From Candidatus Micrarchaeota archaeon CG1_02_47_40 (GTDB taxonomy: Archaea > Micrarchaeota > Micrarchaeia > Anstonellales > CG1-02-47-40): DNA of 64,000 bases. Below are positions 11,773 to 56,365 of this stretch, piece by piece. The stretch is from NCBI GenBank assembly GCA_001871475.1, contig MNVE01000002.1:1-64000 (forward strand), written 5' to 3'. The translations under genes were made by a program, and so were the position numbers. The notes below the pieces were generated by a model. That model saw only the letters and a list, made by a program, of their open reading frames with translations. It made no database searches and was not told where the DNA came from. Each line of letters begins with the position of its first letter. Position 1 is the stretch's first letter.

Positions 11773-12264
11773 ATGAAACGCGGCCAGGCGGCAATGGAAT
11801 ACCTCTTCACATACGGATGGGCAATTTTAGCGGTAGTTTCGGCAATCGCGGTGCTCTCGTGGATGGGAGTGTTTTCCGCATCGCAGTTCATCTCCGAGCA
11901 GTGCACCTTCCAGCCGGATTTCCCCTGCACAAATCACATATTATCAACTCAACAAGGAGAAAGCACCGCAACATTGAAATTCCGCATTTCAAACGGCTTC
12001 GGCTCGCAGGTAAGATACACTGATTTCAATGCAACGATTGACGAAGATTTTTTTGTAGGGACAACACCAATCACCCCCACAGATATTATAGGGCAAGGAG
12101 AGCAGACGGATTTTGAAATAAGCGGAATCGGCGTGCAGAAAGGCTCTGTAAAAGAAATATTAATCAATTTAGAATATGCAAACTGCCAAACCGCTTCTGA
12201 TGAAACCTGCACGGACGCAAGCAAGCACGCAATTGCAGGGAAAATAGTCGCAAAAGCGGAATAA
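11773..12264 (+). CDS. Class III signal-peptide prepilin-like protein
   Basis: The N terminus MKRGQAAMEYLFTYGWAIL is a prepilin signal: basic residues, cleavage after Gly4, Gln at +1 and Glu at +5, then a hydrophobic helix to about residue 35. The mature part is about 160 residues, beta-rich, with paired cysteines (CTFQPDFPC, and C...C near 140). It should be processed by the prepilin peptidase and either polymerised or anchored in the membrane. The last 15 bases including the stop are copied repeatedly downstream. Confidence 0.85.
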   Translation: MKRGQAAMEYLFTYGWAILAVVSAIAVLSWMGVFSASQFISEQCTFQPDFPCTNHILSTQQGESTATLKFRISNGFGSQVRYTDFNATIDEDFFVGTTPITPTDIIGQGEQTDFEISGIGVQKGSVKEILINLEYANCQTASDETCTDASKHAIAGKIVAKAE

Positions 12265-12466
12265 GCACAGAAATGGCAAAAGCAGAATAATAAAAAACAA
12301 GAATGGCAAAATCAGAAATAGCAAACACACAGTGATGGCGAAAACAGAAATAGTTGCAAAAGCAGATTAATAAAAAACAAGAATGGCGAAAGCAGGACAA
12401 TCAAAAACAAGAATGGCAAAAGCAGAATAATCAAATACGGAATAGCAAAAAGCAGAATAAACACAA
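12250..12466 (+). repeat. Degenerate repeats of the pilin gene 3' end
   Basis: The gene ends GCAAAAGCGGAATAA. Seven to eight imperfect copies follow (for example GCAAAAGCAGAATAA and GCAAAAGCAGATTAA), spaced irregularly with the interlude AAAAAACAAGAATG. Two copies read ATG GCA AAA GCA GAA TAA, a five-residue start-stop mini-ORF. No other gene is seen here. Confidence 0.8.
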
Positions 12467-12477
12467 GGATGATTTGA

Positions 12478-15400
12478 ATGGGCGGCATCTACATCTCACG
12501 AATTAAACTTCGCTCCTTCAAATCCTTCAAGCACGCGGACATAGAACTCTCAAACGGATTTGTGTGCGTCGCCGGCCCCAACGGAAGCGGCAAGAGCAAC
12601 ATCTGCGACGCGATACGCTTTTCATTGGGGGAAATGAGTCTAAAATCTTTAAGAGTGAAAAAAATACGCGAGCTTATACACTTCTCCTCTTCAAAGGCAG
12701 AGGTGCTCCTTGAGTTTGGCGGGGACAGGAAGTTAGAGGCAAGAAGGGCAATAAGAGAGGATGGAAAGGTAAAATACCGCCTTGACGGGAACCGCACCAC
12801 ACGAACAGCGCTTTTGGAGGCACTCTCCCCCTATGGGCAGGAATCTACCGCGCACAACATAATAGCGCAGGGGCAGATACAGCACATTGTGGAGATGAAC
12901 TCAAAGCAGAGAAGGGAAATAATAGATTCCGTTTCAGGAGTGCATGAGTTTGAGCAGAAAAAAGAGGAGGCAATAAGCGAGCTTGGGAAGGTAGAGGCGA
13001 AAATAAACGATTCAAAGATAGTTTTGGGGGAGCGCGAAGGATTTTTGCGCGAATTGGAAAAGGAAAAGGATGATGCGCTCTCCTACCTGGAAGCGTCCGA
13101 CACGCAGAAGCGCTCAAAGGCAACGATGCTTGGAATTGAGCTTGACAAATTCTCCCGCGCGCATGAAGAAGCGGTAAAGGAATACAATAAACTGCAGGAT
13201 GCAAAAAAGGAAACAGAAGGGAAAATTGCCCTGCTTGAGCAGGAAATAAAAAAGCTTGAAGGGGAAAAAAGCGAATACATAGCAAAAATAAACAAAAAGA
13301 GCCAGCGCGAGGATGCAATAAGGGAAATAGCAGAGCTAAAGGCGGGCATAAGCGCGGCAAATGCCGCAATCATGGAGAAAAATTCCTCGCTAAAGCAGTT
13401 GGCGGAGCGGCTTTCTTCCTTTGAGGGTGAGAAAAAGGAGGCAGAAGATAAAATTTCAGGGTTGCAGGCGCAGGTTAAGGCGCTTTCCGGGCAGGCAAAG
13501 GAAAAGGAAGCGCAAATACAAAAGCTCGGGGGAAAGAACGCCTTTTCCGAACACGTTGCAGAGGCAAAGAGGCTGCACGAAGAGGCGCAATCCTCCCTAT
13601 CATCACTTCTGCAGGAGAAGTCAAAATCGGAATCAGAGCTATCATCTGCACAGGATATGTACAATTTCCGTCTTGAGGAGAAGAAAAGGCTCTCGCAAAG
13701 CGGTGCGCAGGCACTGCCCGAATCCGAATCCTTAAGGAACAAGGAGAAATCCCTTTCAGCAGAGGTTGGCGCGCTTGAGGAGGAGATAGGAAAGCTGTTT
13801 TCCCGTGAAAAAGAGCTCAATAAAAAAATCCCGGACCTGGATAAGGAGCGCCTTGAGCTTGCAGAAAAGGCGGCAAACTTCCGCGCAATCGCAAAGCCGG
13901 CATCGGCAAATCCCGCGCTCCAGCTCATAGCGCAGATGAAGGGGAAAATTCCCGGAATATATGGGACGGTTTCAGAGCTGATTTCGTTTGAGGGGGAATA
14001 TGCGACTGCAGTGGAAGCATCATGCTCCCAAAGGCTGAATTACGTTATTGTGGAGGATTTGGATACCGCTTCAAAAGCAATAGACGTGCTAAAGAAGCAG
14101 AAGGCGGGAAGGTGCACCTTCATCCCCTTAAACAGGAAGCTCTCATTTTCAGATGAGGAAACCGCAAGGCTTGCAAAGAGCGCAAATTCCCTCGGATTTT
14201 TATCCGATTTCATAAAATATGACAGGAAATTTGAGCCTGCAATGAATTATGTTTTTTCAGACACACTGCTCGTAAATACTATTGAAAACGCAAAGAAAAT
14301 AGGCTTTCAAAAAGCAAGAATGATAACGATGCAGGGGGAGCTTCTTGAGAAAAGCGGCATAATAACAGGGGGCATCATCTCCAGGGGAATCTCCGCAGGG
14401 GTGCAGCTCTCAAAAGTTGAGGAGGAGATTTCGCGCGTGAAGGCACAGAGGGATTCCTTTTATGCAGAGCTTGACTCCATACGCGAGGAGATGGGAAAGA
14501 AGAGGAGGAAAAAGGCGGAAGGGGAGGTTGAGCTAAAATCAATACAGCTCAAATTCGATTCGCTAAAGGAGAAGGAAAAAGGCGCGGCTGAATTGGCAGG
14601 GAGGATACGCCAGATTGAGGGGGAAGCTGAAAAACTATCAGGCGCGCTTGAGGAGAAAAAAAAGTTATTGGCAGATTTTGATGGGAAAATTGCGCATGCG
14701 CAGGAAGTGGAGAAAAAGGCAAGGCAGAAAATAGAGGAAGAGGAAAAGAGGGCGCGCGAGCACGAATCAGCGGGGCAGAAAAAGCTAAACGAGCTTATCG
14801 CGCAATTCACAAAGCTTGAGGAGGAGCAGCGGGGCCGCGATAATGAAATCATGCTTCACAAGAAAAGGGAAGAGGAAATTATTACGGAGGCAAAAAAGGC
14901 GCGCGAGGAGGAGAAAAAGCAGAAAGGGGAAATAACCGCGCTCAAAAATGAGAGCGCCTCTTCGCAGAGGCTGGTAGACGCAAAGGAGGAGGAACTGCGC
15001 GAGACTGGAAAGCAGGTGCAAAAATGGTTTGACGCCTCAAAGAAAATAGATGGGGAGATTGCAAAACTTGCTGAAGAGAAGGGGAAGTTTTTGCACTCCA
15101 ATGAGGGAATTTTCCGAAAGCTGGGGGAGCTTGACGTAAAGCGCGCAACGACAGAAACAAGGCTTATAGACCTGAAGGCGGAGTTTGAGGAATACAAGCA
15201 GTATGCGAGAATAGAGGCATCGCGCGAAAAGCTGCTCGAGATGATTAGGGAGAGCGAAGGGGTGCTAAGCGCGCTTGGGAATGTGAATTTAAAAGCGCCG
15301 GAGCTCTACGAGCAGAAGAAAAAGGACATCGCCGAGATAAAGGAAAAGGTTGAGAAGCTCGCAGATGAGCGCTCAGCAGTGCTTGCAATGATTTCTGAAA

Positions 15401-15909: not shown

Positions 15910-15945
15910 GAAGACTTATTTAATTGCGCATGCAAATGCTTTTCC

Positions 15946-17751: not shown

Positions 17752-17778
17752 GCTTTCAATCAGGCATCCCAAAGCACA

Positions 17779-18825: not shown

Positions 18826-18837
18826 TTCATTCTCTCC

Positions 18838-19422
18838 TCACTTCGGGGCGCATTTCACCGCCCAGACTATTTCGCTTCTTGCGCGCTCAAGCTGCCCCCG
18901 CACAACATCCTGCTTTGCGCGGAAATTCGGCAAGAGGGAGTTTGAAAAGCGCAAAGCGGACATCTCCTCATTGAGCGCTTCCATTATCTCAAAATAATAT
19001 AATGCCTCCTTTACCTTTCCCTTTCTCAACTCCTCGAGCATCTGCCTTCTTAGCTCCCCTATGCAGTCGCATATTCCGGTTAAGTAATTTGGCTCTTCAA
19101 CTCCCAAATCCCCTGCCTTTGGGATGCTTTTTTTCTCCATTATCGCAAAAAGCACCTCTGCCTCAACCACTTCCTGCTCGCTCTGCCGGAGAAGATACGA
19201 AAGCTCTCCTGTCCCTTCCCTTGCCTTTTTCAGCCCGTCTTTCGCCATTTTCAAAAACTCGCCCGCTTTCCCCTTCTCCCCGTTGTGCATGCACTTTATG
19301 GAGTTTGCGCAGTTCCTTATTATCTCGCGGGATTTTACGAGCAGCCCGTCCTGTATCCTCTCAAGCGAGGACAGCCTTTTCACCATTCCCTCTATTCCTA
19401 TGTCAATTCTTTTTTTTGCCAT
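18838..19422 (-). CDS. Translin family protein
   Basis: An archaeal translin/TRAX relative. The C-terminal signature is clear: YLTGICDCIGELRRQML, EALYYFEIMEALNEEMSALRF and LLPNFRAKQDVVRGQLERARSE. At about 194 residues the length fits. Family members form octameric shells that bind and cut small RNA or single-stranded DNA. I start at ATG 19422, because a TATA box at 19446-19453 places transcription start there; ATG 19428 is two codons earlier. It diverges from UMP kinase across this shared promoter. Confidence 0.9.
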   Translation of the reverse strand: MAKKRIDIGIEGMVKRLSSLERIQDGLLVKSREIIRNCANSIKCMHNGEKGKAGEFLKMAKDGLKKAREGTGELSYLLRQSEQEVVEAEVLFAIMEKKSIPKAGDLGVEEPNYLTGICDCIGELRRQMLEELRKGKVKEALYYFEIMEALNEEMSALRFSNSLLPNFRAKQDVVRGQLERARSEIVWAVKCAPK

Positions 19423-19445
19423 GCACACATTAGGCAGGGGAGGGC

Positions 19446-19453
19446 TTATAAAT
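19446..19453. promoter_or_regulatory. Shared TATA box, translin / UMP kinase
   Basis: TTATAAAT can act in both directions: about 36 bases before ATG 19485 on the plus strand and about 27 bases before ATG 19422 on the minus strand. This predicts leaderless or nearly leaderless transcripts. Confidence 0.55.
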
Positions 19454-19484
19454 TATTTTGGCGCATCTACCCTTTGGTGCGGCA

Positions 19485-20460: not shown

Positions 20461-20635
20461 AATCTATCTTTTAATTTCTCATCAATCTTTACTTCTCTTC
20501 CGCTTCCTTCCATCCGCTTAATCTATCTTTACTCTTCTCCTTCGTTTTCTTCTTCTATCTCATCCGCTTAATCTATTTTTACTTCTTTCCTTTGTTTCTT
20601 TCTTCTCATCCGCTTAATCTATTTTTACTTCTTTC
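20461..20635 (-). repeat. Tandem copies of the hsp20 3' end
   Basis: The hsp20 gene ends GAAGTAAAAATAGATTAA, followed by GCGGATGA. This unit recurs at about 20561-20590 nearly unchanged, again at 20513-20540, and as decayed copies at 20481-20501 and 20461-20480. Each keeps the TAA stop or a close variant. The array fills the spacer between hsp20 and the tiny Cys-rich gene. Confidence 0.8.
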
Positions 20636-21168
20636 CCTTCCGGCTTCTTTTCCTCTTTTGCCTTCTTCAGCCTGACTTCCAGCACCCCGTTCTTATAAGC
20701 CGCTTTCGCGCTTTCCGGAAGCACCCTTTTTGGCAATTCCACTTCGCGCGAGTATTTCCTTTTGGGGTTTTCCACCCTTATTGAAAGCTTTTGCGAAGCC
20801 GCATTCAGCTCTATCTCCTTTTTCTCAACGCCGGGAAGTTCGGCAATCACAACTATTTCATCCTTGTCATCAATAACATCCACAAGAGGGGCGCGCTCAT
20901 TCCCTTCAATCTGCGTCTGCTGCGCAGATGGGCGTATGTTTCCAAACTCATGTATGACCGGCTTTCCATCCTGTCCCATCCTCATTGAAAACCCATACAC
21001 TTTTGCCCCCGGCTGTTTGGACAGCTTCTCCAATCCCCTCTCGTCAAACTGCATTCTTGAAACATTTTCCATCATGGAGCGCATCTCCTCATTCATCCTC
21101 TCAAAAATACCCTCAAAATCCCCTTCAAACGGGTTGAAATTTCCCTTTCTTCTCAAAGGCAACGGCAT
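20614..21168 (-). CDS. hsp20: Small heat-shock protein Hsp20 (alpha-crystallin family)
   Basis: An ATP-independent holdase chaperone. The 184-residue protein has a Phe/Met-rich N-terminal arm (FNPFEGDFEGIFERMNEEM), then the alpha-crystallin domain from about 90: PLVDVIDDKDEIVVIAELPG, LSIRVENPKRKYSREVELP, and the signature YKNGVLEVRLKK. A Lys/Glu tail replaces the usual IXI motif. ATG 21168 follows GAGGTGAT at five bases. The 3' end is duplicated in tandem downstream. Confidence 0.93.
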   Translation of the reverse strand: MPLPLRRKGNFNPFEGDFEGIFERMNEEMRSMMENVSRMQFDERGLEKLSKQPGAKVYGFSMRMGQDGKPVIHEFGNIRPSAQQTQIEGNERAPLVDVIDDKDEIVVIAELPGVEKKEIELNAASQKLSIRVENPKRKYSREVELPKRVLPESAKAAYKNGVLEVRLKKAKEEKKPEGKEVKID

Positions 21169-21200: not shown

Positions 21201-21293
21201 CAGATATTTAATATTTTACTTAATGGCACTCCAAATATTCAATATTTACTTAATGGCACACCAGATATTTATTATTTACTTCATGGCGCGCAC
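21201..21293 (-). repeat. Three tandem copies of the dph2 3' end
   Basis: The dph2 coding end GCCATGAAGTAAATAATAAA is followed by two further copies of about 30 bases, each with GCCATTAAGTAA and an AT-rich TATTxAATATxTG tail. The Met-Lys-stop codons become Ile/Leu-Lys-stop-like in the copies. The array separates dph2 from hsp20. Confidence 0.8.
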
Positions 21294-36552: not shown

Positions 36553-36631
36553 GCGTTATCATCCAATCTTGTTTTTTTCTTCTCATTCTTTTCTATCATC
36601 ATTTATTCCTGCGCCTTTCTCCTTCCATCCT

Positions 36632-38041
36632 TTACGCTTTCGCCTTTTCTCCTTCCTTTTCTTTTTTATCATAATATCTATTTCCGTATTTTTCTATGAA
36701 CTCGCTTTTCACCCTCTTCAACTCGCTTTTGGGCAGCATGGAAAGCAACTCCCATCCCAAGTCAAGCGTCTGTTCAATGCTCCTGTCCTCATGCGTTCCC
36801 TGCGAGATAAACCTCTTTTCAAACACATCCGCGAATTTCAGGTAAATCCTGTCCGTTTCGGAGAGCGCCTCTTCACCGACTACCGCAGACAGGCTCCTCA
36901 AATCCCTTCCGGTAGCGTAAGCGGCATAAAGCTGGTCAGCCACTCCCCTGTGGTCCTCGCGCGTTCTCTCTTTGCCAATCCCCAAATTCATAAGCCTTGA
37001 CAGGCAGGGAAGCACATCAACAGGCGGAATGATATTTTTTCTGTGAAGCTCGCGCCCAAGCACAATCTGCCCTTCCGTAATATATCCTGTCAAATCCGCA
37101 ATCGGATGCGTAATATCATCCCCTGGCATTGTGAGTATGGAGAACTGCGTAACCGTTCCCTTCTTCCCCTTTATCCTTCCCGCTCTTTCATAAATTGTAG
37201 AGAGGTCGGTGTACATATACCCTGGATACCCTCTTCTTCCAGGCACCTCTTCCCTTGCCGATGCAATCTCCCTTAACGCCTCGCAGTAATTAGTCATGTC
37301 CGTGATAATCACCAGCACGTGCATATCCTTTTCATATGCAAGGTATTCGGCAGTTGTCAGCGCAAGACGCGGGGTAATCAGCCTTTCCACCGAGGGGTCG
37401 TCCGCCAAATTCAAAAAAAGCACCGCCCGCCGTAGCGCACCCGTTTTCTCAAAATCCCTCATGAAAAACGAAGCTTCTTCGTGCGTAATCCCCACAGCGG
37501 CAAACACTACTGCAAATTCTTCCCCCTTGCCTTTCGTTTTTGCCTGCCTTGCAATCTGCACCGCCAATTGGTTGTGCGGCAAGCCGCTTCCCGAGAATAT
37601 TGGCAGCTTCTGTCCGCGCACAAGAGTGTTCATTCCGTCTATTGTGGAAACCCCTGTTTGTATGAAATCCCTCGGCTCATCGCGCGAGAAGGGGTTGATT
37701 GCCGAGCCGTTTATGTCCGGCCTCTGCTTTGCAATCGTTTTAGGCCCCCCGTCTTTCGGATTTCCAAGTCCGTCAAACACCCTTCCAAGCATCTCATCAG
37801 ACACTGCAATCTTCATTGTTTCCCCGAGGAATTTCACCTTTGTCTTCTCCACATCAAGCCCGGCAGTAGTTCCGAAAACCTGCACCACCGCCAAGCCGCG
37901 GCTTGTTTCGAGCACCTGCCCTGTTTTCTTCTCTCCGCTAGGCAGTGTAATCTCAACAAGCTCGTTGTAACCCACTCCCTCAACCCCCTCAACGAAAACA
38001 AGAGGGCCTGCAATCTTATTCACTGTTTTGTATTCCTTCAT
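36632..38041 (-). CDS. atpB: A-type ATP synthase subunit B
   Basis: The non-catalytic nucleotide-binding subunit of the A1 head. The beta-barrel N terminus ([24 protein letters not shown]) is followed by the ATPase core lacking a full Walker A ([14 protein letters not shown]), as expected for [34 protein letters not shown] and SALSRLMN-like [11 protein letters not shown] follow. ATG 38041 with AAAGGTGAT upstream is preferred. 21 bases from subunit A. Confidence 0.97.
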
Positions 38042-41000: not shown

Positions 41001-41398
41001 ATATCCCCGCGCTTTACTTTTGCGCCTTCCTTCACTTTCGGCACAAAATCCCATTTTCTTTTCCTATCCAGCGCGCTCACCGCAATGCCGCGCGCAATGA
41101 ATGCGCTTTTGCTCTTTTTTGCAATCTGCTCAAGCGGCCGCTGTATCCCGTCGTAAATCGAAGTCAACAGCCCAGGCCCAAGCTCCACGGAAAGCGGCTC
41201 GTGCGTGTTTTTGACAGGCTCGCCCGGCATCAGTCCGCTTGTATCCTCATACACCTGGATGGTGGAATATTTCCCTTCCATCTTGATTATCTCACCCATC
41301 AGCTCCTCTTTCCCTACCTTCACCAGGTCGTACATTTTCGCACCTTCAACATCCCGTGCAACTACGACGGGGCCGCTGACTTTGTAAATTTCTCCCAT
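38063..41398 (-). CDS. atpA: A-type ATP synthase subunit A, intein-containing precursor
   Basis: The catalytic subunit, translated as a precursor of about 1,111 residues. A 527-residue intein splits the P-loop: GPFGSGK is followed by the intein, then TVTQHQFAKWSDTQIVVYVGCGERGNEM. The spliced protein of about 584 residues is normal for the family, with the A-specific bulge domain (about 115-190). ATG 41398 has GAGGTG six bases upstream; a GTG three codons earlier is the alternative. Splicing is needed to rebuild the ATP-binding loop, so ATP synthase activity depends on it. Confidence 0.97.
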   Translation of the reverse strand: MGEIYKVSGPVVVARDVEGAKMYDLVKVGKEELMGEIIKMEGKYSTIQVYEDTSGLMPGEPVKNTHEPLSVELGPGLLTSIYDGIQRPLEQIAKKSKSAFIARGIAVSALDRKRKWDFVPKVKEGAKVKRGDIIGTVKETSVIEHRVMAPVSGRVAKIRKGKYTVEEMVAKISDGKKTHEICMLQRWSVRKPREYNEKMDPNIPLITGQRIVDMFFPIAKGGTACVPGPFGSGKCVCGDTPVMLADGSLKTMREIYEWACRNGFVENGINEEFISLNKPIGLYSLENGKLKKSISTSFYKGMSDSLIEIKTRSGRSVKVTPVHRLFSVGTDGKMAETKAGCLKKGESLVAIRKIGVENDDAGIDAYRMEEARVIDEEIRGELAQLIREARRENIALDIAEMTLHSLTRKKSCLPKLKWVKEVYSKMKKPLPQPKILRGERRGAPFCIPEKMTPAMAEFLGLFCAEGYVRGGRTLVFTNSDEERLGRFMALSKEVFGLEAKIEKQAGKTPNALVMSGILAKFVEMLEIGKNACTKRIPQRVLASGNKCVGAFLKGFFLGDGSFYGGEAEFSTASSELKTQISYALSRFGVLNSISRREINGKEHYRIFARGRENLQRLYEALEGEGYEKIARIRKYVESKDASYSATDTVSLDAGVVNALYKNSGVKYNELKKAGIEIHNYISGKERMGAKIFRRFAELVCVKCGNQVQAQEILKLANALEYIYCDEIIAINEINGPFEVFDVSVPGIENFVGGDGGLLLHNTVTQHQFAKWSDTQIVVYVGCGERGNEMTEVLTEFPKLEDPKTKKPLMERTVLIANTSNMPVAAREASVYTGITIAEYYRDMGYDVALMADSTSRWAEAMREIGGRLEEMPGEEGYPAYLARRLAEFYERAGRVQCLGSEKRHGSITVIGAVSPPGGDINEPVSQNTLRVTKVFLALDASLAQRRHFPAFHWLRSYSLYTENLDGWYAEHISSDWVELRRESMALLQKEAELQEIVQLVGPDALPEKEQAVLDATKMIREDFLQQSAYHEIDTYSGMKKQYLMLRNILKFHHKAMDAIELGAGIKAVQKMKVREKIGRAKEIVEAKLNEFEDISKEIDAEFERLSKEPSS
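39116..40696 (-). mobile_element. Intein in atpA with LAGLIDADG endonuclease
   Basis: It starts with Cys (CVCGDTPVMLADG), carries the TPVHRLF block B motif, and ends VFDVSVPGIENFVGGDGGLLLHN before Thr. The penultimate His, terminal Asn and +1 Thr are intact, so splicing should work. The endonuclease motifs LGLFCAEGYV and LKGFFLGDGSF each keep the acidic residue, suggesting active homing. Insertion after the P-loop Lys is a known VMA intein site in archaea. Confidence 0.95.
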
Positions 41399-41418
41399 TT
41401 TTTTCACCTCTAGAAATG

Positions 41419-43737: not shown

Positions 43738-45660
43738 TTATTTTTCCTCCATTGAAAACGGAGAGAATTTCTTTCCCCCTCCATGGAAGAATTTACCGTA
43801 AAACTCAACCAGATTCAGCCTTGCTCCCTGCACGAGCGATTCAAACATCGCCAAAAACGTGTTGGCTATGTGAAGCAAAAGCACGACTGCGCACACCAGG
43901 AAAAACACAAACGGGTTTGCGCGGTTTGGCAGAGCCACCCCTTCAAACAACAGCTTGTTTATTATTGCTTCCGCCACCACCACCCCGGCAATCCCCACTG
44001 CCGCAATCCGCGCGTAGGAAAGTGCGTTCCCGGCAATTCCTGGTATTTCAAACACTCCCATAATTCCGTCCGCCCGAACAACAAGCAGAAGGGAAACCGC
44101 AAAAATTATCCCGCCTGCGAGCACCTCATCAATGGGCAGTGCAAGAAGGCTTGCGGAAAACATCAAATGCGGAACCAAAAGCAGCCCGCTTGCGAGTATT
44201 CCAATCCAGCCGAGTTTTGCCATCGCGTGCGTTTTGGAATGCCCCCACTCATTTACAAAGCCAAGGAACAGCCCTAAACTTAGGTGCAGCACCCCTACCA
44301 ATATTGTAATGAGCAGAAGCGTCCCTATATCATGCAATCTGCTTAAGTGAAAAGCGCTTCCGAAAACCACTACCAGAAAGCTTCCGCCGACATGCACTCC
44401 CATTTCTTCCATAAGCGTTTTGAAGGTAAACCCAAACCACTCATCAAAGAGAATCCCGAAAATCATTGAGGGGATTGAGGCAATCGCCCAAAGCACTGCA
44501 AACCCTCTCAACATGCCCGGCTTTGTTTTCGCAATTATCATGCCTGCAAGAAGGAGCGAAATAATCCCATACCCGACATCCCCTACCATCATCCCGTATA
44601 ATATGGGAAAGGTAAGTGCGAGTATCATTGAAGGGTCTATTTCCCTTGCCCTTGGAAGTGAGAAAAATTCAACCAAAAACTCAAAAGGCGAGAACGGCTT
44701 TGGGTTTGCAAGAAGTGTCGGCGGCTCGTCTTTTCCTTTTATTCTGCTGACGAATATTCTTCCGCCAAACCTGCGCTTCAATTCTTCATGCAGCTTCCAG
44801 TAATTTTTCTCAAGCAGCCAGCCATGCAGTATGAATGTTTCTTCGGTAGCGCGAAAATCGGAAACAGCAGTGCAGCGCGCCTCCCATATCTTCAGCACTT
44901 TGTCAATTTCAATTATCTTTCCGTAATACTCTTTTGAAATTACTTCATACTCCTTTCCTATTTCAGCAAGCCTTTTCTTTTGTTTATGTATTTCCTCTTC
45001 TGCAATTGCAATGTTCTCAAGGGGCGTTCCGGCAATCTTCCCCGCCTGCACGAACTCAAAGCCATGCGCCTCAAGCGTTCCCTTCACGTTCTCTTTTTTA
45101 GGCGCGCAAACAACGCACGCAAAATCCGCCGCTGTCTGCCCCCGCCCCTTCATCATGCAGGTGTTTTTCGTTTTTGCAAGCGCTCCCTTCAGTATTTCAT
45201 ATTTTTTTCTCTTTACGATTCCGGCATGGCACTCAATCGTTTCCGCCTCAAGCTTCCCAAAATCAACATCCAACCCCGCGAGTTTTGCAAGTTTTTCCTT
45301 CTTTTCCGCAAGCGAGTCAATTCTTTCTTCAATCCGTTCCCTTTCCGCTTCAAGCTCCCTCAATCTTGCGTCTATTTTTATCTTGCCGCATTCAGCAATT
45401 GCCTGCTCAAGAGGCATTTCGGATTTATGGTTTTCCTTTTCCCCGGGCTGCTTTTCAAGCAGGTTTTTTATCCCCCTTATCCTTGTAAGCTGCTCTGACA
45501 CGATTTGGTAAACGTGCAGCGGGTTTTCCCTTCCTGCCTCTTCTCCCTCCACCTTCCTTATCTCAAGAAGCCCTAGCGTGTGCAGTGAGGAGATTAGCGC
45601 AGGCTCGTCACGCCTCATTCCGATAACCCTTATCTTCTGCATCTTTGCAGGCCTAAACAT
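43738..45660 (-). CDS. atpI: A-type ATP synthase subunit I (membrane stator a)
   Basis: A 640-residue stator. The soluble N-terminal half has coiled coils (about 90-130 and 220-260). The membrane half from about 340 has seven to eight helices. It includes FPILYGMMVGDVGYGIISLLLAG and, near the C terminus, SYARIAAVGIAGVVVAEAI. The essential Arg lies in the SYARI helix. ATG 45660 follows GGAAGGT. This start region is duplicated 45 bases upstream. Confidence 0.96.
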   Translation of the reverse strand: MFRPAKMQKIRVIGMRRDEPALISSLHTLGLLEIRKVEGEEAGRENPLHVYQIVSEQLTRIRGIKNLLEKQPGEKENHKSEMPLEQAIAECGKIKIDARLRELEAERERIEERIDSLAEKKEKLAKLAGLDVDFGKLEAETIECHAGIVKRKKYEILKGALAKTKNTCMMKGRGQTAADFACVVCAPKKENVKGTLEAHGFEFVQAGKIAGTPLENIAIAEEEIHKQKKRLAEIGKEYEVISKEYYGKIIEIDKVLKIWEARCTAVSDFRATEETFILHGWLLEKNYWKLHEELKRRFGGRIFVSRIKGKDEPPTLLANPKPFSPFEFLVEFFSLPRAREIDPSMILALTFPILYGMMVGDVGYGIISLLLAGMIIAKTKPGMLRGFAVLWAIASIPSMIFGILFDEWFGFTFKTLMEEMGVHVGGSFLVVVFGSAFHLSRLHDIGTLLLITILVGVLHLSLGLFLGFVNEWGHSKTHAMAKLGWIGILASGLLLVPHLMFSASLLALPIDEVLAGGIIFAVSLLLVVRADGIMGVFEIPGIAGNALSYARIAAVGIAGVVVAEAIINKLLFEGVALPNRANPFVFFLVCAVVLLLHIANTFLAMFESLVQGARLNLVEFYGKFFHGGGKKFSPFSMEEK

Positions 45661-45666
45661 AGTATA

Positions 45667-45793
45667 CCTTCCGCTTGCCTCCCGTTCATCTCATTCTCTA
45701 AACATAGTATGCCTTCCCGCTATCTTCCAGTTATCCCATTCTTCAAGCATTTCCTTATTCCCTTTTTATCTCATTCTTCAAGTATTCTTTTTG
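45667..45793 (-). repeat. Duplicated gene ends between ahaH and atpI
   Basis: The atpI start region AAGGTATACTATGTTTAG has a copy ending at 45698 (AAGGCATACTATGTTTAG) 45 bases upstream. That copy starts a four-residue mini-ORF (ATG TTT AGA GAA TGA). The ahaH 3' end ATACTTGAAGAATGAGATAA is echoed as ATGCTTGAAGAATGGGATAA about 40 bases on. Both neighbouring gene ends were therefore copied into one 110-bp spacer. Confidence 0.75.
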
Positions 45794-48138: not shown

Positions 48139-48147
48139 GTTTTGACT

Positions 48148-49992
48148 ATGCCTGCAAAAATAAAAAGGAAAAAATTCCGCACTGGAAAAACAAGCGTCTA
48201 CCTAAATGGGCGGCTTGTCGGATTCAGCGAGTCCGGTGCAGAGCTTCTTGCAACACTGCGCGAGCAGAGGAGGAGCGCAGCGATTTCTTCCGAGGTGAAT
48301 TTCCACCTGAATGAAAGGACGGAAGAGCTTTACGTAAACACGGATGCGGGGCGCGCACGCCGCCCGTACATAATAGTTGAGAACGGCAAAAGCAAGCTCA
48401 TCCCCTCAATAATCCCGCAGATACGCGCCGGGGAAATTTCCTGGGCAAAGCTTGTGCAGCTTGGCATAATAGAATACCTGGATGCGGAAGAGGAGGAGGG
48501 GGCATACATAGCGCTGAAGGAGGAGGAGCTGACGCCCCAGCACACCCATCTTGAAATAGACCCAATCTCCATAGTGGGAGTGACGGTATCCGTCCTTCCC
48601 TACCCGGAGTACAATTCCTCCCCAAGAATTACGATGGCATGCGCAATGGCAAAGCAGTCGCTTGGCACTTATATTATTAACTACAACCTGCGCACGGATT
48701 CCCGCGCGCACATAATGTCCTACCCGCAGCAGCCCCTTGCGCAGACAAGGCCGTATAAATTGCTCAAATTTGCCGAGAGGGCGGCTGGGCAGAACTTTGT
48801 CGTTGCAATCACCTCTTACCGCGGCTATAACATGGGGGACGCGATTGTGATGAACAAGAGCGCGATAGACAGGGGCCTGGGAAGGAGCGTATTCTACAAA
48901 AATTACGAGGCAGAGGAGCGCCGCTACCCCGGCGGGCAGAAGGACAAGTTTGAAATACCCCCTGCAACTACCGCCGGCTACCGGGACGAGCAGGCTTACA
49001 AATACCTTGATTCGGATGGAATAGTAATGCCCGAAGTGGAAGTCCGGAATAAGGAGGTTTTGGTAGGCAAAACATCCCCCCCGAGATTTTTAGAGGAGGT
49101 TACCGTGTTCGGCGTGGTTGAGGAGAAGAAAAGGGAAAACTCGCTGGCGGTAAAAAGCGGGGAGAACGGAAGCGTGGATTCGGTGATGGTTACGGATTCG
49201 CTTTCTGGAAACAAGATGGCAAAGATACGCCTGCGCTCAATAAAAATACCGGAAATAGGAGACAAGTTCGCATCGCGCCACGGGCAGAAAGGAGTGATAG
49301 GCTTGGTAATGCCCCAGCACGACATGCCATTCACAAAAGACGGCATCGTGCCTGACCTGATAATAAACCCGCACGCAATCCCCTCGCGCATGACTGTCGG
49401 GCACCTGCTTGAGATGCTTGGGGGAAAGTCAGCATGCATGAGCGGAAAGTTCGCGGACGCAAGCGCGTTTGCAGGCGACACTGGAAATGATTTCCGCAAG
49501 ATACTCTCCGAGTTCGGCATGCAGGAGTATGGGGAGGAAACCCTTTACGATGGATTGACGGGGGAGAAGATAAAGGCAAAAATCTACATCGGCGTAATTT
49601 ATTACCAAAAGCTTCACCACCTGGTTTCAAACAAGATGCACGTGCGCTCAAGGGGGCCGGTGCAGCTTCTGACGCACCAGCCGACAGAAGGAAGGGCGCG
49701 TGAAGGGGGGTTGCGATTCGGGGAGATGGAGCGCGACTGCCTCATAGGATACGGCGCATCCATGCTGCTGCGCGAACGCATGCTTGAAGAATCTGACCGC
49801 ACCATAGAGCTTGTGTGCTCAAAGTGCGGCTCAATCGCAGTCCACGACCACATAAAAAACAGGGACTACTGCCCTGTGTGCGATTCAACTTCGCTTGAGA
49901 TGGTGGAGATGAGCTATGCGTTCAAGCTCCTGCTTGACGAGATAAAATCGCTCGGAATATTTCCAAGGCTGCTGCTGAAAATGAAATGCTGA
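48148..49992 (+). CDS. rpoB1: RNA polymerase subunit B'
   Basis: The C-terminal half of the beta-like subunit, about 614 residues. It contains GQNFVVAITSYRGYNMGDAIVMNKSAIDRGLGRS, GDKFASRHGQKGVIGLV, GRAREGGLRFGEMERDCLIGYGAS and the C-terminal zinc finger CSKCGSIAV...CPVCDS. The start is ATG 48148, with a TTG at 48142 possible. The final codons (CTGAAAATGAAATGCTGA) seed the tandem repeat that follows. Confidence 0.97.
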   Translation: MPAKIKRKKFRTGKTSVYLNGRLVGFSESGAELLATLREQRRSAAISSEVNFHLNERTEELYVNTDAGRARRPYIIVENGKSKLIPSIIPQIRAGEISWAKLVQLGIIEYLDAEEEEGAYIALKEEELTPQHTHLEIDPISIVGVTVSVLPYPEYNSSPRITMACAMAKQSLGTYIINYNLRTDSRAHIMSYPQQPLAQTRPYKLLKFAERAAGQNFVVAITSYRGYNMGDAIVMNKSAIDRGLGRSVFYKNYEAEERRYPGGQKDKFEIPPATTAGYRDEQAYKYLDSDGIVMPEVEVRNKEVLVGKTSPPRFLEEVTVFGVVEEKKRENSLAVKSGENGSVDSVMVTDSLSGNKMAKIRLRSIKIPEIGDKFASRHGQKGVIGLVMPQHDMPFTKDGIVPDLIINPHAIPSRMTVGHLLEMLGGKSACMSGKFADASAFAGDTGNDFRKILSEFGMQEYGEETLYDGLTGEKIKAKIYIGVIYYQKLHHLVSNKMHVRSRGPVQLLTHQPTEGRAREGGLRFGEMERDCLIGYGASMLLRERMLEESDRTIELVCSKCGSIAVHDHIKNRDYCPVCDSTSLEMVEMSYAFKLLLDEIKSLGIFPRLLLKMKC

Positions 49993-50100
49993 AAATGAAA
50001 TGCTGAAAATGAAATGCTGAAAATGAAATGCTGAAAATGAAATGCTGAAAATGAAGTGCTGAAAATGAAATGCTGAAAATGAAATGCTGAAAATGAAATG
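49975..50100 (+). repeat. Nine-copy 14-bp tandem repeat from rpoB1 3' end
   Basis: The unit CTGAAAATGAAATG is repeated nine times without gaps (9 x 14 = 126 bases); only the sixth copy differs by one base (AAGTG). The first copy encodes the last residues of rpoB1, and the rpoB1 stop is at its junction with copy two. Nearly every unit junction spells ATG AAA TGC TGA, a three-residue mini-ORF. It ends nine bases before the rpoA1 ATG. Confidence 0.95.
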
Positions 50101-50109
50101 CTGATATAT

Positions 50110-52650
50110 ATGGAAAGAATAGTGCAGAAAATGATTGAGAAGATAAAGTTTTCCGTGTTCTCGCCAGAGGCAATAAGGAAGCTTTCCGCCGCGAAAATAA
50201 CAATACCTGACACCTACAACGACGACTCCTATCCAATAGACGGAGGGCTTGTTGACCCGCGCCTCGGAGTCATCGACCCGGGGTTAAAATGCAAAACCTG
50301 CGGGGGAAAACTGCGAAGCTGCCCAGGGCACTTCGGGCACATTGAGCTTGTGCGCCCTGTAATACATCCTGAATTCTCAAAAATAATGCTCTACGTTATG
50401 CGCACTACCTGCCCATCCTGCTGCCGCGTCCTTCTTGAGGAAGAGGACATAAAGGAACTGGCGGCGAAAATAGTGCAGTCCGATGATGTGGAGGATGAGA
50501 TGAAATCAAAAACGAAAAAGGTTTCAAAATGCCCCCACTGCTCCGAGAAGGTGCCTGAAATAAAGCTCCTAAAGCCCACCACCTTCTTTAAGGACAAGAC
50601 AATGCTTCTTCCAACTGAAGTGCGCGACTGGCTTTCCAAAGTGTCAAATGAGGATTTGCGCGTGCTTGGCTTGGACCCGCTTTACGCCCGCCCAGAATGG
50701 ATGGTAATAACCGCCCTCCTAGTCCCTCCTGTTTCCGTCCGCCCCTCCATTACTCTTGAAACCGGAGACCGCTCCGAGGATGATTTGACGCACAAGCTTG
50801 TAGATATAATGAGGATAAACCAACGTCTTGATGCGAACATAAATGCAGGAGCGCCCCAGCTCATCATAGAAGACCTCTGGGAGCTTCTCCAATACCACGT
50901 GACCACTTACTTTAACAATGAGACTGCGAACATCCCTCCTGCGCGCCACCGCTCCGGCAGGCCGCTCAAAACCCTTTCGCAGAGGCTGAAGGGGAAAGAG
51001 GGAAGATTCCGCTACAACCTCTCGGGAAAGAGGGTGAATTTCTCCGCGCGCACGGTAATCTCCCCTGACCCAAACATTTCCATAGATGATGTGGGGGTTC
51101 CGCGCGAGTTTGCGGAAGAGCTTACCATTCCTATGCGCGCAACAAGCTGGAATCTTGAGGCATGCCGCCAGTATATACTGCGCGAGGAATACCCAAAGGC
51201 GGAATACGTTACGCGCGCAGACGGAAAGAGGCTTCGCGTCACGGAAACCACACGCAAGGAAATTTCCGACACGCTTGAGCCCGGCTGCATCATAGACAGG
51301 CAGCTTGTTAACGGCGACACGGTGCTTTTCAACCGCCAGCCGTCCCTTCACCGCATTTCAATAATGTGCCATTCAGTAAAGGTGCTTCCAGGCAGGACAC
51401 TGCGCCTGAACCCATCCGACTGCCCGCCATACAATGCGGACTACGACGGGGATGAGATGAACCTGCACGCGATACAAACAGAGGAGGCGCAGGTGGAGGC
51501 GGAAGTTCTGATGAAGGTGCACAACCAGATAATCTCCCCGCGCCACGGCGCGCCGATAATAAAGCCGCAGGAAGACCACGTGTCAGGGGCGTTCTTCCTT
51601 ACCCGCGATTCTACTGTATTCACAAAATCACAGGCGTGCACACTGCTTGCGATAGCGGGCATAACCCGGCTTCCGCAGCCTGACCGCAAGGACGGCTATT
51701 CCGGAAAGCTCATTTTCTCAATGCTCCTGCCAAAAGACCTTTCCCTGCACATAAAAGTTTCCCACTCAAAGGAGAAGGCGGAATATTCGCAGGACGTTAT
51801 AATAAAAAATGGAGTGCTCGTTGATGGGGCGCTTGAGAAGAAATCCTACGAAAACGCCATAATACAGAAAATAGTTTCGCTGCACGGCACGGATGCCGCT
51901 CGCAAATTCATAGACGATTCCACGAGGATAGCGCTTGAGGCGGTGACATTGCAGGGATTGTCGGTTTCCCTTGCAAACTATACTCTCTCTCCCGAAGCGC
52001 AAAAACAGCTCTTGGAAATAGACAACGCGGTAACAAAGGAGATAGAAACCGCGCTGATGCAGCATCGGAACAGGACGTTAAAGCGCCACCCGGGAAAAAC
52101 CCTGCGCGAAACCCTTGAGCAGATGATTATGGAAATCACCTCGCGCCACCGCGAGGGGATAGGGGTTGTGGTTGAGAGACAGCTCGGGACGCACAACACT
52201 TCAATAATCATGGCGAAAATCGGGGCGCGCGGCTCACTTTTGAATGCAATACAGATGGCAGGTTCGGTTGGGCAGCAGGCAATCCGCTCAAAGCGCCCCT
52301 CGCGCGGATACAGCAGGAGGGCGCTTGTGCACTTTAAGAGGGAGGATTTGGGCTCTGCCGCGCGCGGATACGTTTCAAGTTCTTTTGCAAAGGGCCTCAA
52401 CCCGTGCGAGTTCTTCTTCCACTCAATGGGCGGAAGGGAATCCATGGTGAACACCGCCATACGAACAGCCCGCTCCGGCTACATGCAAAGGAGGCTGATT
52501 AACGCTTTACAGGATTTGGTGGTTGCCCGCGACCTCTCGGTGCGGGACTCGCGCGGAGTATACGTGCAGTTTAGATACGGCGGCGATGGGGTGGACCCCT
52601 CAAAGGTCTCCTCGCTGGCAGAATCCGAAGAAAAGGAAAAAGAGGATTAA
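50110..52650 (+). CDS. rpoA1: RNA polymerase subunit A'
   Basis: The N-terminal part of the beta'-like subunit, about 846 residues. Zinc sites CKTCGGKLRSCPGHFGH and CPSC...CPHC lie in the first 140 residues. The catalytic Mg loop NADYDGDEMNLH is at about 442-453, and RPSRGYSRRALVHF lies near the end. ATG 50110 (MERIVQ) is preferred; ATG 50098 lies inside the last repeat unit. It is followed by rpoA2 after eleven bases. Confidence 0.97.
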   Translation: MERIVQKMIEKIKFSVFSPEAIRKLSAAKITIPDTYNDDSYPIDGGLVDPRLGVIDPGLKCKTCGGKLRSCPGHFGHIELVRPVIHPEFSKIMLYVMRTTCPSCCRVLLEEEDIKELAAKIVQSDDVEDEMKSKTKKVSKCPHCSEKVPEIKLLKPTTFFKDKTMLLPTEVRDWLSKVSNEDLRVLGLDPLYARPEWMVITALLVPPVSVRPSITLETGDRSEDDLTHKLVDIMRINQRLDANINAGAPQLIIEDLWELLQYHVTTYFNNETANIPPARHRSGRPLKTLSQRLKGKEGRFRYNLSGKRVNFSARTVISPDPNISIDDVGVPREFAEELTIPMRATSWNLEACRQYILREEYPKAEYVTRADGKRLRVTETTRKEISDTLEPGCIIDRQLVNGDTVLFNRQPSLHRISIMCHSVKVLPGRTLRLNPSDCPPYNADYDGDEMNLHAIQTEEAQVEAEVLMKVHNQIISPRHGAPIIKPQEDHVSGAFFLTRDSTVFTKSQACTLLAIAGITRLPQPDRKDGYSGKLIFSMLLPKDLSLHIKVSHSKEKAEYSQDVIIKNGVLVDGALEKKSYENAIIQKIVSLHGTDAARKFIDDSTRIALEAVTLQGLSVSLANYTLSPEAQKQLLEIDNAVTKEIETALMQHRNRTLKRHPGKTLRETLEQMIMEITSRHREGIGVVVERQLGTHNTSIIMAKIGARGSLLNAIQMAGSVGQQAIRSKRPSRGYSRRALVHFKREDLGSAARGYVSSSFAKGLNPCEFFFHSMGGRESMVNTAIRTARSGYMQRRLINALQDLVVARDLSVRDSRGVYVQFRYGGDGVDPSKVSSLAESEEKEKED

Positions 52651-52661
52651 AGCTGGTATTT

Positions 52662-55103
52662 ATGAAAAAGGAAAAGTCAGAAAAAAAAGAATCAAAAGCG
52701 CTCGTTGATATCGGCGAGGCGGTCGGGATAGTGGCAGCGCAGAGCATAGGCGAGCCCGGCACGCAGATGTCCCTTGCCTACGATGAGAAAGTGCTTGTAA
52801 GCGACTGCGGGGAAGTGAATGCAGTTAAAATAGGCGAATTCATAGACGGGATGATGGAACGCTTCGGCTCCTCATGCGAGGACGGGCACGAAATCTGCAA
52901 GCCAAAAGCGGAAATCATGGTTCCGAGCCTTGCAAAAAACGAAAAGGTGGAGTGGAAACAGGCAACTCTATTAAGCCGGCACGCCTGCAAAGAGAAACTG
53001 CTTGAACTCTCGCTCCGCTCCGGAAGAAAAATAACCGCGACACCCTTCCATTCGTTTGTAATCAGAAGGGACAACTTGCTTGTTCCGGTTTCAGGCTCAA
53101 GCTTGAAAAAAGGAGACAGGCTGCCCGTGCTCCGAAATCTTGCATGCCCCCCAGGCATTGCGGTCAAAGCCGTTGACATAGTTCCCGCACTGCAGATGGC
53201 AATGAAGCACATGAGTTCCTCAAACGGGCTTGTTTATGCATATCCGCGCGAAGGCTCAAAGCCCCTGCCAAGACAGCTTGAGCTGGATGGGGAATTCGGC
53301 TGGCTTTTGGGGATTTACCTTGCAGAAGGGAACTCAACTCATAATTTCACCTCAATATCAAACACTGACTTAACGATTCAGCAGAAAATACGCGATTTTG
53401 CAAAGGCGCACGGACTTACGACAAACGAATACGATAACCCGCGCGGCTTTTCCCTCTCGCACGACATAAGGATAAATTCCGCTCTGCTTGCCGAATTCCT
53501 GAAAGCTGTGTGCGGAACCTCATCCTACTCAAAGCGCGTTCCTTTGTTTGCCTATTCCGCAAACGAAAAATTCATCTCTTCCCTGCTGCGCGGCTATTTT
53601 GACGGCGACGGAAATGTAAGTGTTGAGCGGAGGGTAATTCGTGCTTCTTCAAAGTCAAAGGAGCTTATTGACGGCATCTGCCTCCTGCTTGCGCGCCTTG
53701 GCATTTTCGCCGGCAAAAGAAGCGACAAAAAAACGCACAACATTTCAATCTCATACAGATATGCGCCTTCCTTCCTGCAGAAAATCGGCTCCGACGTTGA
53801 GGGAAAGAGGCTGAAATTGGAAATACTCTCCTCAAGCGAACAGGGCATCGGATACAATCTCGTTGACGTGATTCCGGGAATAGGAAACTCCCTTCTGTCC
53901 GCTGCCAATAAGCTTGGCATCCCCTCAAGGTTCGTGAATAATTTCACAAAAAGACAGAAAATAGGGCGCTCAACACTCATCAAATACCTTGAAGAGTTCG
54001 AACGGCTTTCTGCTGAAAAAAACATTTCCCTGCCCGAACTTCTGCCGCTCAAAAATGCCGCCGATGGCGACGTTCTCTGGGACGAGATAGAAAAAATAGA
54101 GCGCGTTTCTTCTGCAAACAACCGCGTTTATGATTTCACCGTTCCAGGTGCAGAAACATTCACCACCTTTGACGGCGTGATAACGCACAACACGATGCGC
54201 ACCTTCCACTACGCAGGAGTGGCAGAGCAGGTGCCAAGCGGCCTGCCAAGGCTCATTGAAATAGTGGATGCACGCCGCGAGCCGAAAGAGCCGCTGATGG
54301 ATATTTTCCTCAAAGAGCCCCATTGCAACGAGGAAAAAAAGGCGGAAAAAGTCGCGGAGGAAATAGAAAGCACGGTGCTCTCGCAGATTGCAGACATAAG
54401 GGAGAATTTCAAGGACAAGAAGATTGAAATCATGCTTGATGAGCAGGAAATGAAAATCCGCGGAATCGCAGTCGAGGATTTGAAAGAGCCCATAAAGGCG
54501 CAGACTGCAGGCGGTGTTGAAGTGCGGGCGAACAAAATCACCGTGAACCCGAAAATCTCCTCATTGCGCGCAATCCGCAAGGTAACTACAAAACTTGCCT
54601 CCCTTCACATAAAGGGGATTGAAAAAATTTCAAAGGCGATGGTGCTCAAGGGGAAAAACGGGCAGTATTTCATACGCACGAGCGGCTCAAACATCTCCAC
54701 AGTAATGCGCCATGCGAAAGTGATTCCAGAAAAGGTCTATTCAAACGACGTGAAGGAAATAGAAAGATTTCTCGGGATAGAAGCCGCGCGCAACTCCATA
54801 GTGCGCGAGCTGAAGCAGGTTCTTGATTTGCAGAGGCTCAACGTTGACGTGCGCCACTTGATGCTGCTTGCGGATGCGATGTGCATGGACGGGCATATCA
54901 AATCAGTAGGGCGCCACGGGCTTTCCGGGGAGAAGGCGGGCGTGCTTGCAAAGGCGGCATTTGAGGAAACGATAAAGCACTTAATAAGCGCCGCATCTGA
55001 AGGGCAGTACGACAATTTAATAGGCGTAACGGAGAATATAATAATAGGGCAGACGATACCTGTCGGAACAGGCATAGTGCGCCTTAAAATGAAAAAGCAA
55101 TAG
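52662..55103 (+). CDS. rpoA2: RNA polymerase subunit A'', intein-containing precursor
   Basis: An 813-residue precursor. The conserved VGIVAAQSIGEPGTQM is interrupted after Met36 by a 474-residue intein, then TMRTFHYAGVAEQVPSGLPRLIEIVDARREPKEP resumes. The spliced product is 339 residues, normal for A''. The C-terminal DVRHLMLLADAMCMDGHIKSVGRHGLSGEKAGVLAKAAFEETIKHL is intact. Splicing is required for an active polymerase. Confidence 0.97.
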   Translation: MKKEKSEKKESKALVDIGEAVGIVAAQSIGEPGTQMSLAYDEKVLVSDCGEVNAVKIGEFIDGMMERFGSSCEDGHEICKPKAEIMVPSLAKNEKVEWKQATLLSRHACKEKLLELSLRSGRKITATPFHSFVIRRDNLLVPVSGSSLKKGDRLPVLRNLACPPGIAVKAVDIVPALQMAMKHMSSSNGLVYAYPREGSKPLPRQLELDGEFGWLLGIYLAEGNSTHNFTSISNTDLTIQQKIRDFAKAHGLTTNEYDNPRGFSLSHDIRINSALLAEFLKAVCGTSSYSKRVPLFAYSANEKFISSLLRGYFDGDGNVSVERRVIRASSKSKELIDGICLLLARLGIFAGKRSDKKTHNISISYRYAPSFLQKIGSDVEGKRLKLEILSSSEQGIGYNLVDVIPGIGNSLLSAANKLGIPSRFVNNFTKRQKIGRSTLIKYLEEFERLSAEKNISLPELLPLKNAADGDVLWDEIEKIERVSSANNRVYDFTVPGAETFTTFDGVITHNTMRTFHYAGVAEQVPSGLPRLIEIVDARREPKEPLMDIFLKEPHCNEEKKAEKVAEEIESTVLSQIADIRENFKDKKIEIMLDEQEMKIRGIAVEDLKEPIKAQTAGGVEVRANKITVNPKISSLRAIRKVTTKLASLHIKGIEKISKAMVLKGKNGQYFIRTSGSNISTVMRHAKVIPEKVYSNDVKEIERFLGIEAARNSIVRELKQVLDLQRLNVDVRHLMLLADAMCMDGHIKSVGRHGLSGEKAGVLAKAAFEETIKHLISAASEGQYDNLIGVTENIIIGQTIPVGTGIVRLKMKKQ
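52770..54191 (+). mobile_element. Intein in rpoA2 with LAGLIDADG endonuclease
   Basis: It begins with Ser (SLAYDEKVLVSDCGEV), has block B TPFHSFVI, and ends YDFTVPGAETFTTFDGVITHN before +1 Thr. The endonuclease motifs LLGIYLAEGNS and LLRGYFDGDGNV retain their acidic residues. The site, between GEPGTQM and TMRTFH, is the same as that of a known archaeal RpoA'' intein. Confidence 0.95.
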
Positions 55104-55123
55104 CTTAACTTAGGTGAATTATT

Positions 55124-55438
55124 ATGGTTGACATATCAAAGAAAATAAGAATGTGCGCTGAAACCGGAAAGGTCAAATTCGGGGAGCGCGATGCGGTAAA
55201 AGCATCCCTTTTAGGCAGTGCGAAATTGATAATACTCTCCTCAAACTGCCGCCCGGAGGCAAAAAGCGACATATTGCACAATGCTAAAATTTCAGGCATC
55301 CCGACAATCATTTATGAAGGAAACGGCTACGAGCTTGGAAGCGCGTGCGGAGTGCCATACGTGGTTTCCGCAATGAGCGTGTTTGACGCAGGCAACTCCG
55401 ATCTTGTGCCAAAAGAAAAAAAGAAGGAAAAAGAATGA
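55124..55438 (+). CDS. rpl30e: Ribosomal protein L30e
   Basis: A 104-residue L7Ae-fold protein: SKKIRMCAETGKVKFGERDAVKASLLGSAKLIILSSNC, then PTIIYEGNGYELGSACGVPYVVSAMSV. A Lys/Glu tail closes it. In its conserved place between rpoA2 and nusA. Confidence 0.95.
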   Translation: MVDISKKIRMCAETGKVKFGERDAVKASLLGSAKLIILSSNCRPEAKSDILHNAKISGIPTIIYEGNGYELGSACGVPYVVSAMSVFDAGNSDLVPKEKKKEKE

Positions 55439-55444
55439 TTTAAA

Positions 55445-55870
55445 ATGGTTGAGCTTGACAACGATTCGCTGAAATGCATCTCAATATTCGAGGGCATAAC
55501 GGGCGCGCAGGTGGCCGATTGCCTCATAACCCCGGACTCGTTCGTGTTCGTGGTTTCCACAGGCGAGATGGGCCGCGCAATAGGGAAGAATGGAAGCTCA
55601 ATAAACCGCGTCCGCACGGCGTTCAAGAAGCCGGTTTATGTTTATGAAGACTCGCAAACGCTTGAAGGTTTCGTGAAAAGCCTGTTTGCGGACACACCAG
55701 TAAAAAATATAAACATTCACGAGAAAATAGAAGGCAAGACTGCCTATGTTACGGTTTCTGAAAAAGACCGCGGCCAGGCAATAGGGAAAGGGGGCGAGCG
55801 CGTGAAAACCGCGCGCGCGATGCTGCAGCGCCGCTTCGGCTGCGACTTGAAATTGAATTCAAAGGCATAA
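55445..55870 (+). CDS. nusA: NusA-like transcription factor
   Basis: A 141-residue archaeal NusA made of two KH domains (GRAIGKNGSSINRVRTAFKKPVYV and GQAIGKGGERVKTARAMLQRRFG), without the bacterial N-terminal and S1 domains. It binds RNA and probably affects termination. Six bases after L30e. Confidence 0.95.
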   Translation: MVELDNDSLKCISIFEGITGAQVADCLITPDSFVFVVSTGEMGRAIGKNGSSINRVRTAFKKPVYVYEDSQTLEGFVKSLFADTPVKNINIHEKIEGKTAYVTVSEKDRGQAIGKGGERVKTARAMLQRRFGCDLKLNSKA

Positions 55871-55897
55871 AACAAAAAAACACAGAGTGATGATAAA

Positions 55898-56326
55898 ATG
55901 GGAAGAGGAGAATATTCAGCGCTTGACCTTTTGCAGACCAGGAAGAAATTCCGCTGGAAGGAGAAGGCATGGAAGAGAAAAAAGCTTCACCTTAAGGACA
56001 AATACGACCCGCTTGAAGGCGCACCCCAGGGAAAGGGCATAGTCATTGAGAAAAAAGTCCTGGAGCAGAAGCAGCCGCATTCAGGTTTGATAAAATGCGT
56101 CAAGGTGCAGCTTATCAAAAACGGAAAGACTGTGACTGCCTTTGCTCCGCGCAGCGGGGCAATCAACTACATAGACGAGCATGATGAGGTCACAATAGAG
56201 GGGCTTGGAGGCTCGCAGAGAGGGCAGATGGGCTCCATACCCGGCGTCCGCTACAAGGTATCAAAGGTAAACGGCGTTGATTTGCAGATGCTCATAGCAA
56301 AGAGAAAGGAAAAGCCAAAGAGGTAA
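55898..56326 (+). CDS. rps12: Ribosomal protein S12 (uS12)
   Basis: A decoding-centre protein of 142 residues. The fold is clear ([33 protein letters not shown]). The usually invariant PNS loop reads PHSG here (P60, H61, S62), and the PGDG loop reads PRSG. Both lie near the decoding site in other ribosomes. The last 27 bases including the stop are duplicated 39 bases on. Confidence 0.94.
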
Positions 56327-56365
56327 CGGATAAGGGATAAAAGAAAGGAGAAGCCAAAGAGGTAG
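56300..56365 (+). repeat. Duplicated rps12 3' end supplying the rps7 ribosome site
   Basis: 56300-56326 (gene end, ending CCAAAGAGGTAA) recurs at 56339-56365 (ending CCAAAGAGGTAG). The second copy runs into GAGGTAGGAGTG, which is the only Shine-Dalgarno candidate for rps7. Confidence 0.85.

Follow-up and report, generated by a model that had tools for sequence, protein, structure and literature searches.

The stretch of DNA analysed here (the window, 64,000 nt) comprises positions 1 to 64,000 of contig MNVE01000002.1 of the Micrarchaeota archaeon CG1_02_47_40, which is contig 1 of a 16-contig metagenome-assembled genome (MAG) of 1.15 Mb and 93% completeness. At several loci of the window, the ends of genes were present in additional copies in the neighbouring intergenic spacer (Table 1). 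All six loci named in a preliminary description of the window (a pilin-like gene, hsp20, dph2, ahaH/atpI, rpoB1 and rps12) were found in the sequence, and a seventh, between the genes for ATP synthase subunits B and D, had been overlooked. The units had no sequence in common from one locus to another, as had been described, and do not therefore represent one mobile repeat. The pattern of duplicated gene ends is real, genome-wide and confined to part of a clade, and the spacers concerned have most probably been lengthened by local tandem duplications at tight gene junctions: a lineage-specific mutational habit, probably not a signal.

In the pilin array, a 30-nt unit was repeated 3.5 times at 12356-12460, and the longest self-match reached 87 nt at a lag of 106, while the dph2 copy was short (12 bases, stop included). 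Both gene ends were copied at the ahaH/atpI junction, in agreement with the preliminary description: the start of atpI was included in the repeated unit, and the end of ahaH was additionally copied at a lag of 35 (45766-45786 to 45732-45751). The rpoB1-rpoA1 spacer measured 105 nt (vs. 9-35 nt in eight relatives) and the rps12 spacer 41 nt (vs. 15 nt in the sister genome, G001). The eighth case was marginal, and the weak single cases at 63134 and 36632 could be chance resemblances.

Table 1. Gene ends and their copies in the window. Positions are those of the window; unit lengths are followed by the number of copies.
Feature	Position	Strand	Remarks
Pilin-like gene, 163 aa, no Pfam match	11773..12264	+	copies derive from its last ~23 nt
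Degenerate array of the pilin gene end	12250..12460	+	units of about 30/15 nt; fills the gap before the SMC gene at 12478
hsp20 gene end: stop and downstream bases, 46-nt unit x2.8	20503..20636	-	HSP20 Pfam match
dph2 gene end including stop, 30-nt unit x2.8; spacer ahead of hsp20	21204..21287	-	Diphthamide_syn match
End of the gene for ATP synthase subunit B, 29-nt unit x2.0; spacer ahead of the subunit D gene	36597..36656	-	
ahaH/atpI junction, 45-nt unit x2.0, contains the atpI start	45653..45742	-	
rpoB1 gene end, 14-nt unit TGCTGAAAATGAAA x9.4, 98% matches	49973..50104	+	from within the gene to the rpoA1 start
rps12 gene end (56300-56325) and its copy (56339-56364), 26 nt, lag 39	56300..56364	+	
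End of gene 63134-63985 (eighth, marginal case)	63059..63170	-	spacer of 74 nt here, 0 nt in the sister genome

The excess over chance was measured in a 739 kb sample (64% of the 1.15 Mb genome), whose genes were called with a home-made hexamer gene finder checked on the window, on which the positions of the gene starts rest. The last 40 nt of each gene (the tail) were aligned with the downstream spacer, of which at most 150 nt were used, for spacers of at least 25 nt only and at two cuts, a loose one (score of at least 12) and a strict one (at least 14). Near copies in the gene's own spacer were found for 38 of 361 tails (10.5%) at the loose cut, vs. 0.3% for the spacers of other genes, 0.69% for purine-matched other spacers and 1.4% for dinucleotide shuffles; at the strict cut, the values were 8.3% for the tails and 0.0-0.8% for the controls. 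A scan of this kind against shuffled sequence had been proposed in the preliminary description, and the frequency observed was well above that of the shuffles. The copies were direct (10.5% vs. 0.8% inverted at a score of at least 12), local and adjacent, 34 of 53 gaps between copies being of 10 nt or less or overlapping. Gene starts were copied into their upstream spacers less often than tails into their downstream ones (12 of 450, 2.7%; p=5e-6 against tails), and for windows inside coding sequence the rate in the first sample was 0.4%.

Relatives were gathered with RpoB1, the top named ones being mostly Candidatus Micrarchaeota, and the archaeal genomes used for comparison were mostly MAGs. 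Only one other genome of the same family was found, the sister genome; the nearest relative belongs to a different genus, and the next nearest family sampled was f5. Tail copies amounted to 3.5% in the sister genome, to 7.8% and 6.0% in two f5 genomes (G030 and G012, respectively), to 0-2.6% in the other f5 genomes and to 0-0.9% in the other Micrarchaeota families sampled; none were detected among 178 tails of named Micrarchaeota MAGs or among 49 tails of E. coli. In G030 and G012 (loci L135, L136, L183-L187, L226-L230, L140, L141, L193, L194 and L221-L225), copied tails exceeded copied heads (13/186 vs. 1/240, p=1.4e-4), and the affected ends were without purine bias (10.4% and 5.4% in the low-purine subsets). 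The grown spacers of these two genomes seldom held repeats at the stricter cut. In unrelated archaea, the loose cut gave 3.0% and the strict one 0.7%, the latter to be compared with 8.3% here. A sparse background of mostly AT-rich tail copies was seen in them, together with isolated strong cases, such as the one at L067:2714-2890 in an Altiarchaeota MAG (score 36).

The comparison of orthologous spacers, another proposal of the preliminary description, demonstrated that the spacers bearing repeats were those that had lengthened. By reciprocal best hits, 106 pairs of genes were neighbours here and in the sister genome alike. The pairs with a repeat here (n=21) had a median spacer of 89 nt, vs. 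4 nt in the sister genome, where the counterparts often overlapped by 4 to 35 nt, and the pairs without a repeat (n=85) had spacers of 16 and 14 nt, respectively. In a wider comparison (181 gene pairs against 10 relatives or relative pools, ancestral spacer lengths being medians over few relatives), 51 spacers had grown by at least 25 nt; repeats were present in 28 of these, compared with 2 of 27 spacers of unchanged length (p=2.5e-5) and with 4 of 51 grown spacers when other genomes were taken as the focus (p=3.4e-7). Three-way comparisons gave 8 cases in which the spacer of the present genome had grown with respect to both others, 7 of them with repeats. The mutational habit and the spacer growth considered in the preliminary description are thus well supported, the repeats being limited to a clade and located in grown spacers. 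Its emphasis on the 3' ends of genes was partly misleading in that the starts of downstream genes were copied as well: in 20 grown pairs with an ancestral gap shorter than 15 nt, a gene end was copied in 19 and spacer only in one, and the head of the downstream gene was involved in 9. The involvement of gene ends follows from an ancestral gap smaller than the duplicated unit.

The best copies in grown spacers were 70-100% identical to their source (median 85%), a spread that indicates events of many ages and not a doubling introduced by assembly. Many cases were long and nearly identical, such as rpoB1 (98%), L162 (74 nt at 96%) and L116 (52/52 nt). Differences were commoner at the third codon position of the source (81% identity vs. 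89%, p=0.001), as genuine duplicates should show when they age while their source gene is kept by purifying selection. The copies showed no preference for frame, their lags modulo 3 being evenly distributed (19/17/14), nor for the stop, which was kept in 28 of 43 copies (65%) vs. 61% for any triplet (1409/2325). A further GA-rich array spanned the 3' end of a gene of 4.4 kb and 214 nt of the spacer beyond it (L155:1750-6415); it contained a run of N, where the assembly has probably left a gap in what is a longer array.

According to the explanation that we favour, local tandem duplications with units mostly of about 14-60 nt fell on the junctions of neighbouring genes that ancestrally overlapped or lay a few bases apart. 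A unit longer than the gap must carry the upstream end with its stop, the downstream start, or both. Since a duplication of the junction leaves both reading frames whole, it would be tolerated: the upstream gene would stay intact through its stop and the downstream gene from its start. Such duplications may be nearly neutral, and would be retained and then decay, some arrays (rpoB1) re-expanding by slippage; the spacers have thereby lengthened, in a lineage that fixes these duplications at a raised rate. The events themselves may be replication slippage or microhomology template switching; many arrays exceeded two copies by 1-40 nt, and in this respect microhomology and later slippage would look alike.

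Several observations weigh against this explanation, and some of them could point to mutation directed at the 3' ends of genes or at transcribed spacers (for example by breaks at transcription termination, or by R-loops on purine-rich sense strands), in which the mechanism itself would set the position. Twenty-three of the 51 grown spacers had no detectable repeat, and these were either too decayed or lengthened by another route. Several pairs of copies were parted by 40-140 nt of unlike sequence, where a simple tandem event was not visible. Spacers with repeats were purine-rich on the sense strand (0.69 vs. 0.53), as were the tails, which inflates the alignment scores somewhat and would suit R-loops, though the affected ends of the f5 genomes lacked this bias. 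Direct repeats (score of at least 14) were scarce in divergent spacers (5/99, none of the 5 touching a gene start) compared with codirectional (61/280) and convergent (17/56) ones, that is, 5% vs. 23% for the latter two together (p<1e-4). In-frame duplications within genes numbered 11 per 1200 tiles here vs. 5-8 per 993-1200 in three large comparison sets. A genome-wide rise of duplications was considered, and the in-gene rate, which was not clearly raised, proves nothing either way. As neither divergent spacers nor coding sequence were raised above other genomes, a process linked to 3' ends or transcribed spacers could be at work in place of a uniform one filtered by selection, and the predominance of copied tails over copied heads, here and in two f5 genomes, is also in its favour. 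The placement of units in codirectional (operon) spacers was, however, nearly uniform for tails (17 observed vs. 15.8 expected), for units with both ends (10 vs. 9.5) and for spacer-only units (21 vs. 19.3); head-only units alone were under-used (7 vs. 16.4), a deficit that local tandem duplication can accommodate if it is attributed to selection against extra starts. Downstream starts were also copied, and divergent spacers have promoters at both ends, which a selective filter would protect. A uniform process filtered by selection explains the placement with fewer assumptions, and a process aimed at 3' ends is considered unlikely. An extended version, in which a clade-specific process tied to 3' ends (termination, R-loops) continually separates overlapping operon genes while duplicated stop-start junctions such as that of rpoB1-rpoA1 keep their translation coupled as the spacer lengthens, is doubtful. 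If a process tied to 3' ends were nevertheless the cause, this would be a natural "duplicator" lineage with a mechanism aimed at transcript ends.

The other explanations fare worse. The preliminary description had also considered a selected device, in which the extra stops would serve as a backup or the stop-start copies would keep the next gene translationally coupled. Termination-reinitiation has been shown in archaea (PMC6728339), and each 14-nt unit between rpoB1 and rpoA1 (49973-50110) holds a four-codon mini-open reading frame (mini-ORF), ATG AAA TGC TGA, by which stop-start hopping could carry a ribosome across the array to rpoA1 at any copy number; a re-initiation relay is formally possible at this junction, judging from its sequence, and only there. 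The even lags and the lack of preference for stops argue against backup stops, however, and paths of mini-ORFs leading to the next gene exceeded expectation alike with repeats (13 vs. 8.2) and without (19 vs. 11.8), so that a relay was rejected as a general function. Repeats were just as frequent in convergent spacers, where no downstream gene exists to be coupled. The claim was accordingly not upheld, and a selected device is very improbable. Also very improbable is a compositional artefact, by which purine-rich, low-complexity spacers would match purine-rich gene ends by chance: the purine content of the repeat spacers and the rate of only 4.7% in low-purine genes are compatible with it, but the purine-matched and shuffled controls stayed far below the observed rate, many cases were long and nearly identical, and chance likeness would not predict growth with respect to the orthologues. 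It was refuted for the bulk of the cases. The insertion of a mobile element or miniature inverted-repeat transposable element (MITE), with the gene end as the duplicated target, is extremely improbable. Two loci (L116:19064 and L125:5876) do share TTAAAAGGGAAATGRGTGAGAAACCGTAGGTTTCTTAC past the stop, and behind it each has a copy of its own gene end, but the hairpin had just three matches in the genome, one of them inside a gene tail, the remaining units were without shared sequence, and most copies were adjacent with nothing between them. This candidate, which amounts to one 38-nt sequence common to two loci with three genomic matches, was rejected. The hairpin, GTGAGAAACCGTAGGTTTCTTAC, and its shared flank follow the stops of two unrelated genes (L116:19026-19141 and L125:5838-5860).

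Loss of FEN1 (rad27) is known to give rise to short duplications in yeast, and was an obvious candidate for the cause of the raised rate. FEN1, XPF and RNase HII were all encoded in this genome and in nearly all of its relatives, and the FEN1 found here retained both its active-site residues and an intact PIP box; NucS was not found here nor in nearly all relatives, carriers and non-carriers alike. Repair-gene loss was therefore discarded as the cause, the content of these genes being alike in carriers and non-carriers and separating neither group. The raised duplication rate of this lineage is not explained by its FEN1, XPF, RNase HII or NucS content.

The duplications resemble those described for replication and repair defects, such as the tandem duplications of 23-49 bp in an RPA acetylation mutant (PMC10287905) and the short tandem duplications linked to FEN1/XPF inhibition (PMC13202174), in being local, tandem, built of units of tens of bases and not sequence-specific; here, instead, they are fixed evolutionary changes located in codirectional and convergent spacers, in a genome that retains FEN1, XPF and RNase HII. 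The arrays of rpoB1, L162 and L127 are ordinary minisatellites by structure, comparable to the variable number tandem repeats of bacteria and archaea, whereas most of the other cases differ from these in consisting of 2-3 copies that have decayed and are tied to a gene end, with units unrelated between loci. The affected pairs, which in relatives overlap (-4 to -35) or lie close to zero, belong to the class of tight operon pairs subject to termination-reinitiation (PMC6728339, PMC3887535). In PMC3887535, gene overlaps were modelled as arising when starts and stops are altered by point mutation; in the present genome, it is duplication spanning the junction that has removed overlaps, a route untreated in that work, in which the word "duplication" is absent. 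Mitochondrial spacers originating from tandem duplication and random loss (PMC5122201) are likewise remnants in a compact genome, but their units are whole genes or large blocks, as opposed to tens of bases at gene junctions. No description of the present pattern was found in a literature search. The origin of spacers in packed prokaryotic genomes is seldom visible, since spacers do not align between species; as more than half of the grown spacers are still marked by the event, the birth of a spacer, the loss of an overlap and the effect on coupling can here be dated and tested. The clade limit provides, in addition, a natural comparison in which to look for the factors that govern how often short tandem duplications occur in archaea.

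Two other genes of the window contained inteins with splicing and LAGLIDADG domains: that of ATP synthase subunit A (38063-41407, - strand) and rpoA2 (52662-55103, + strand).

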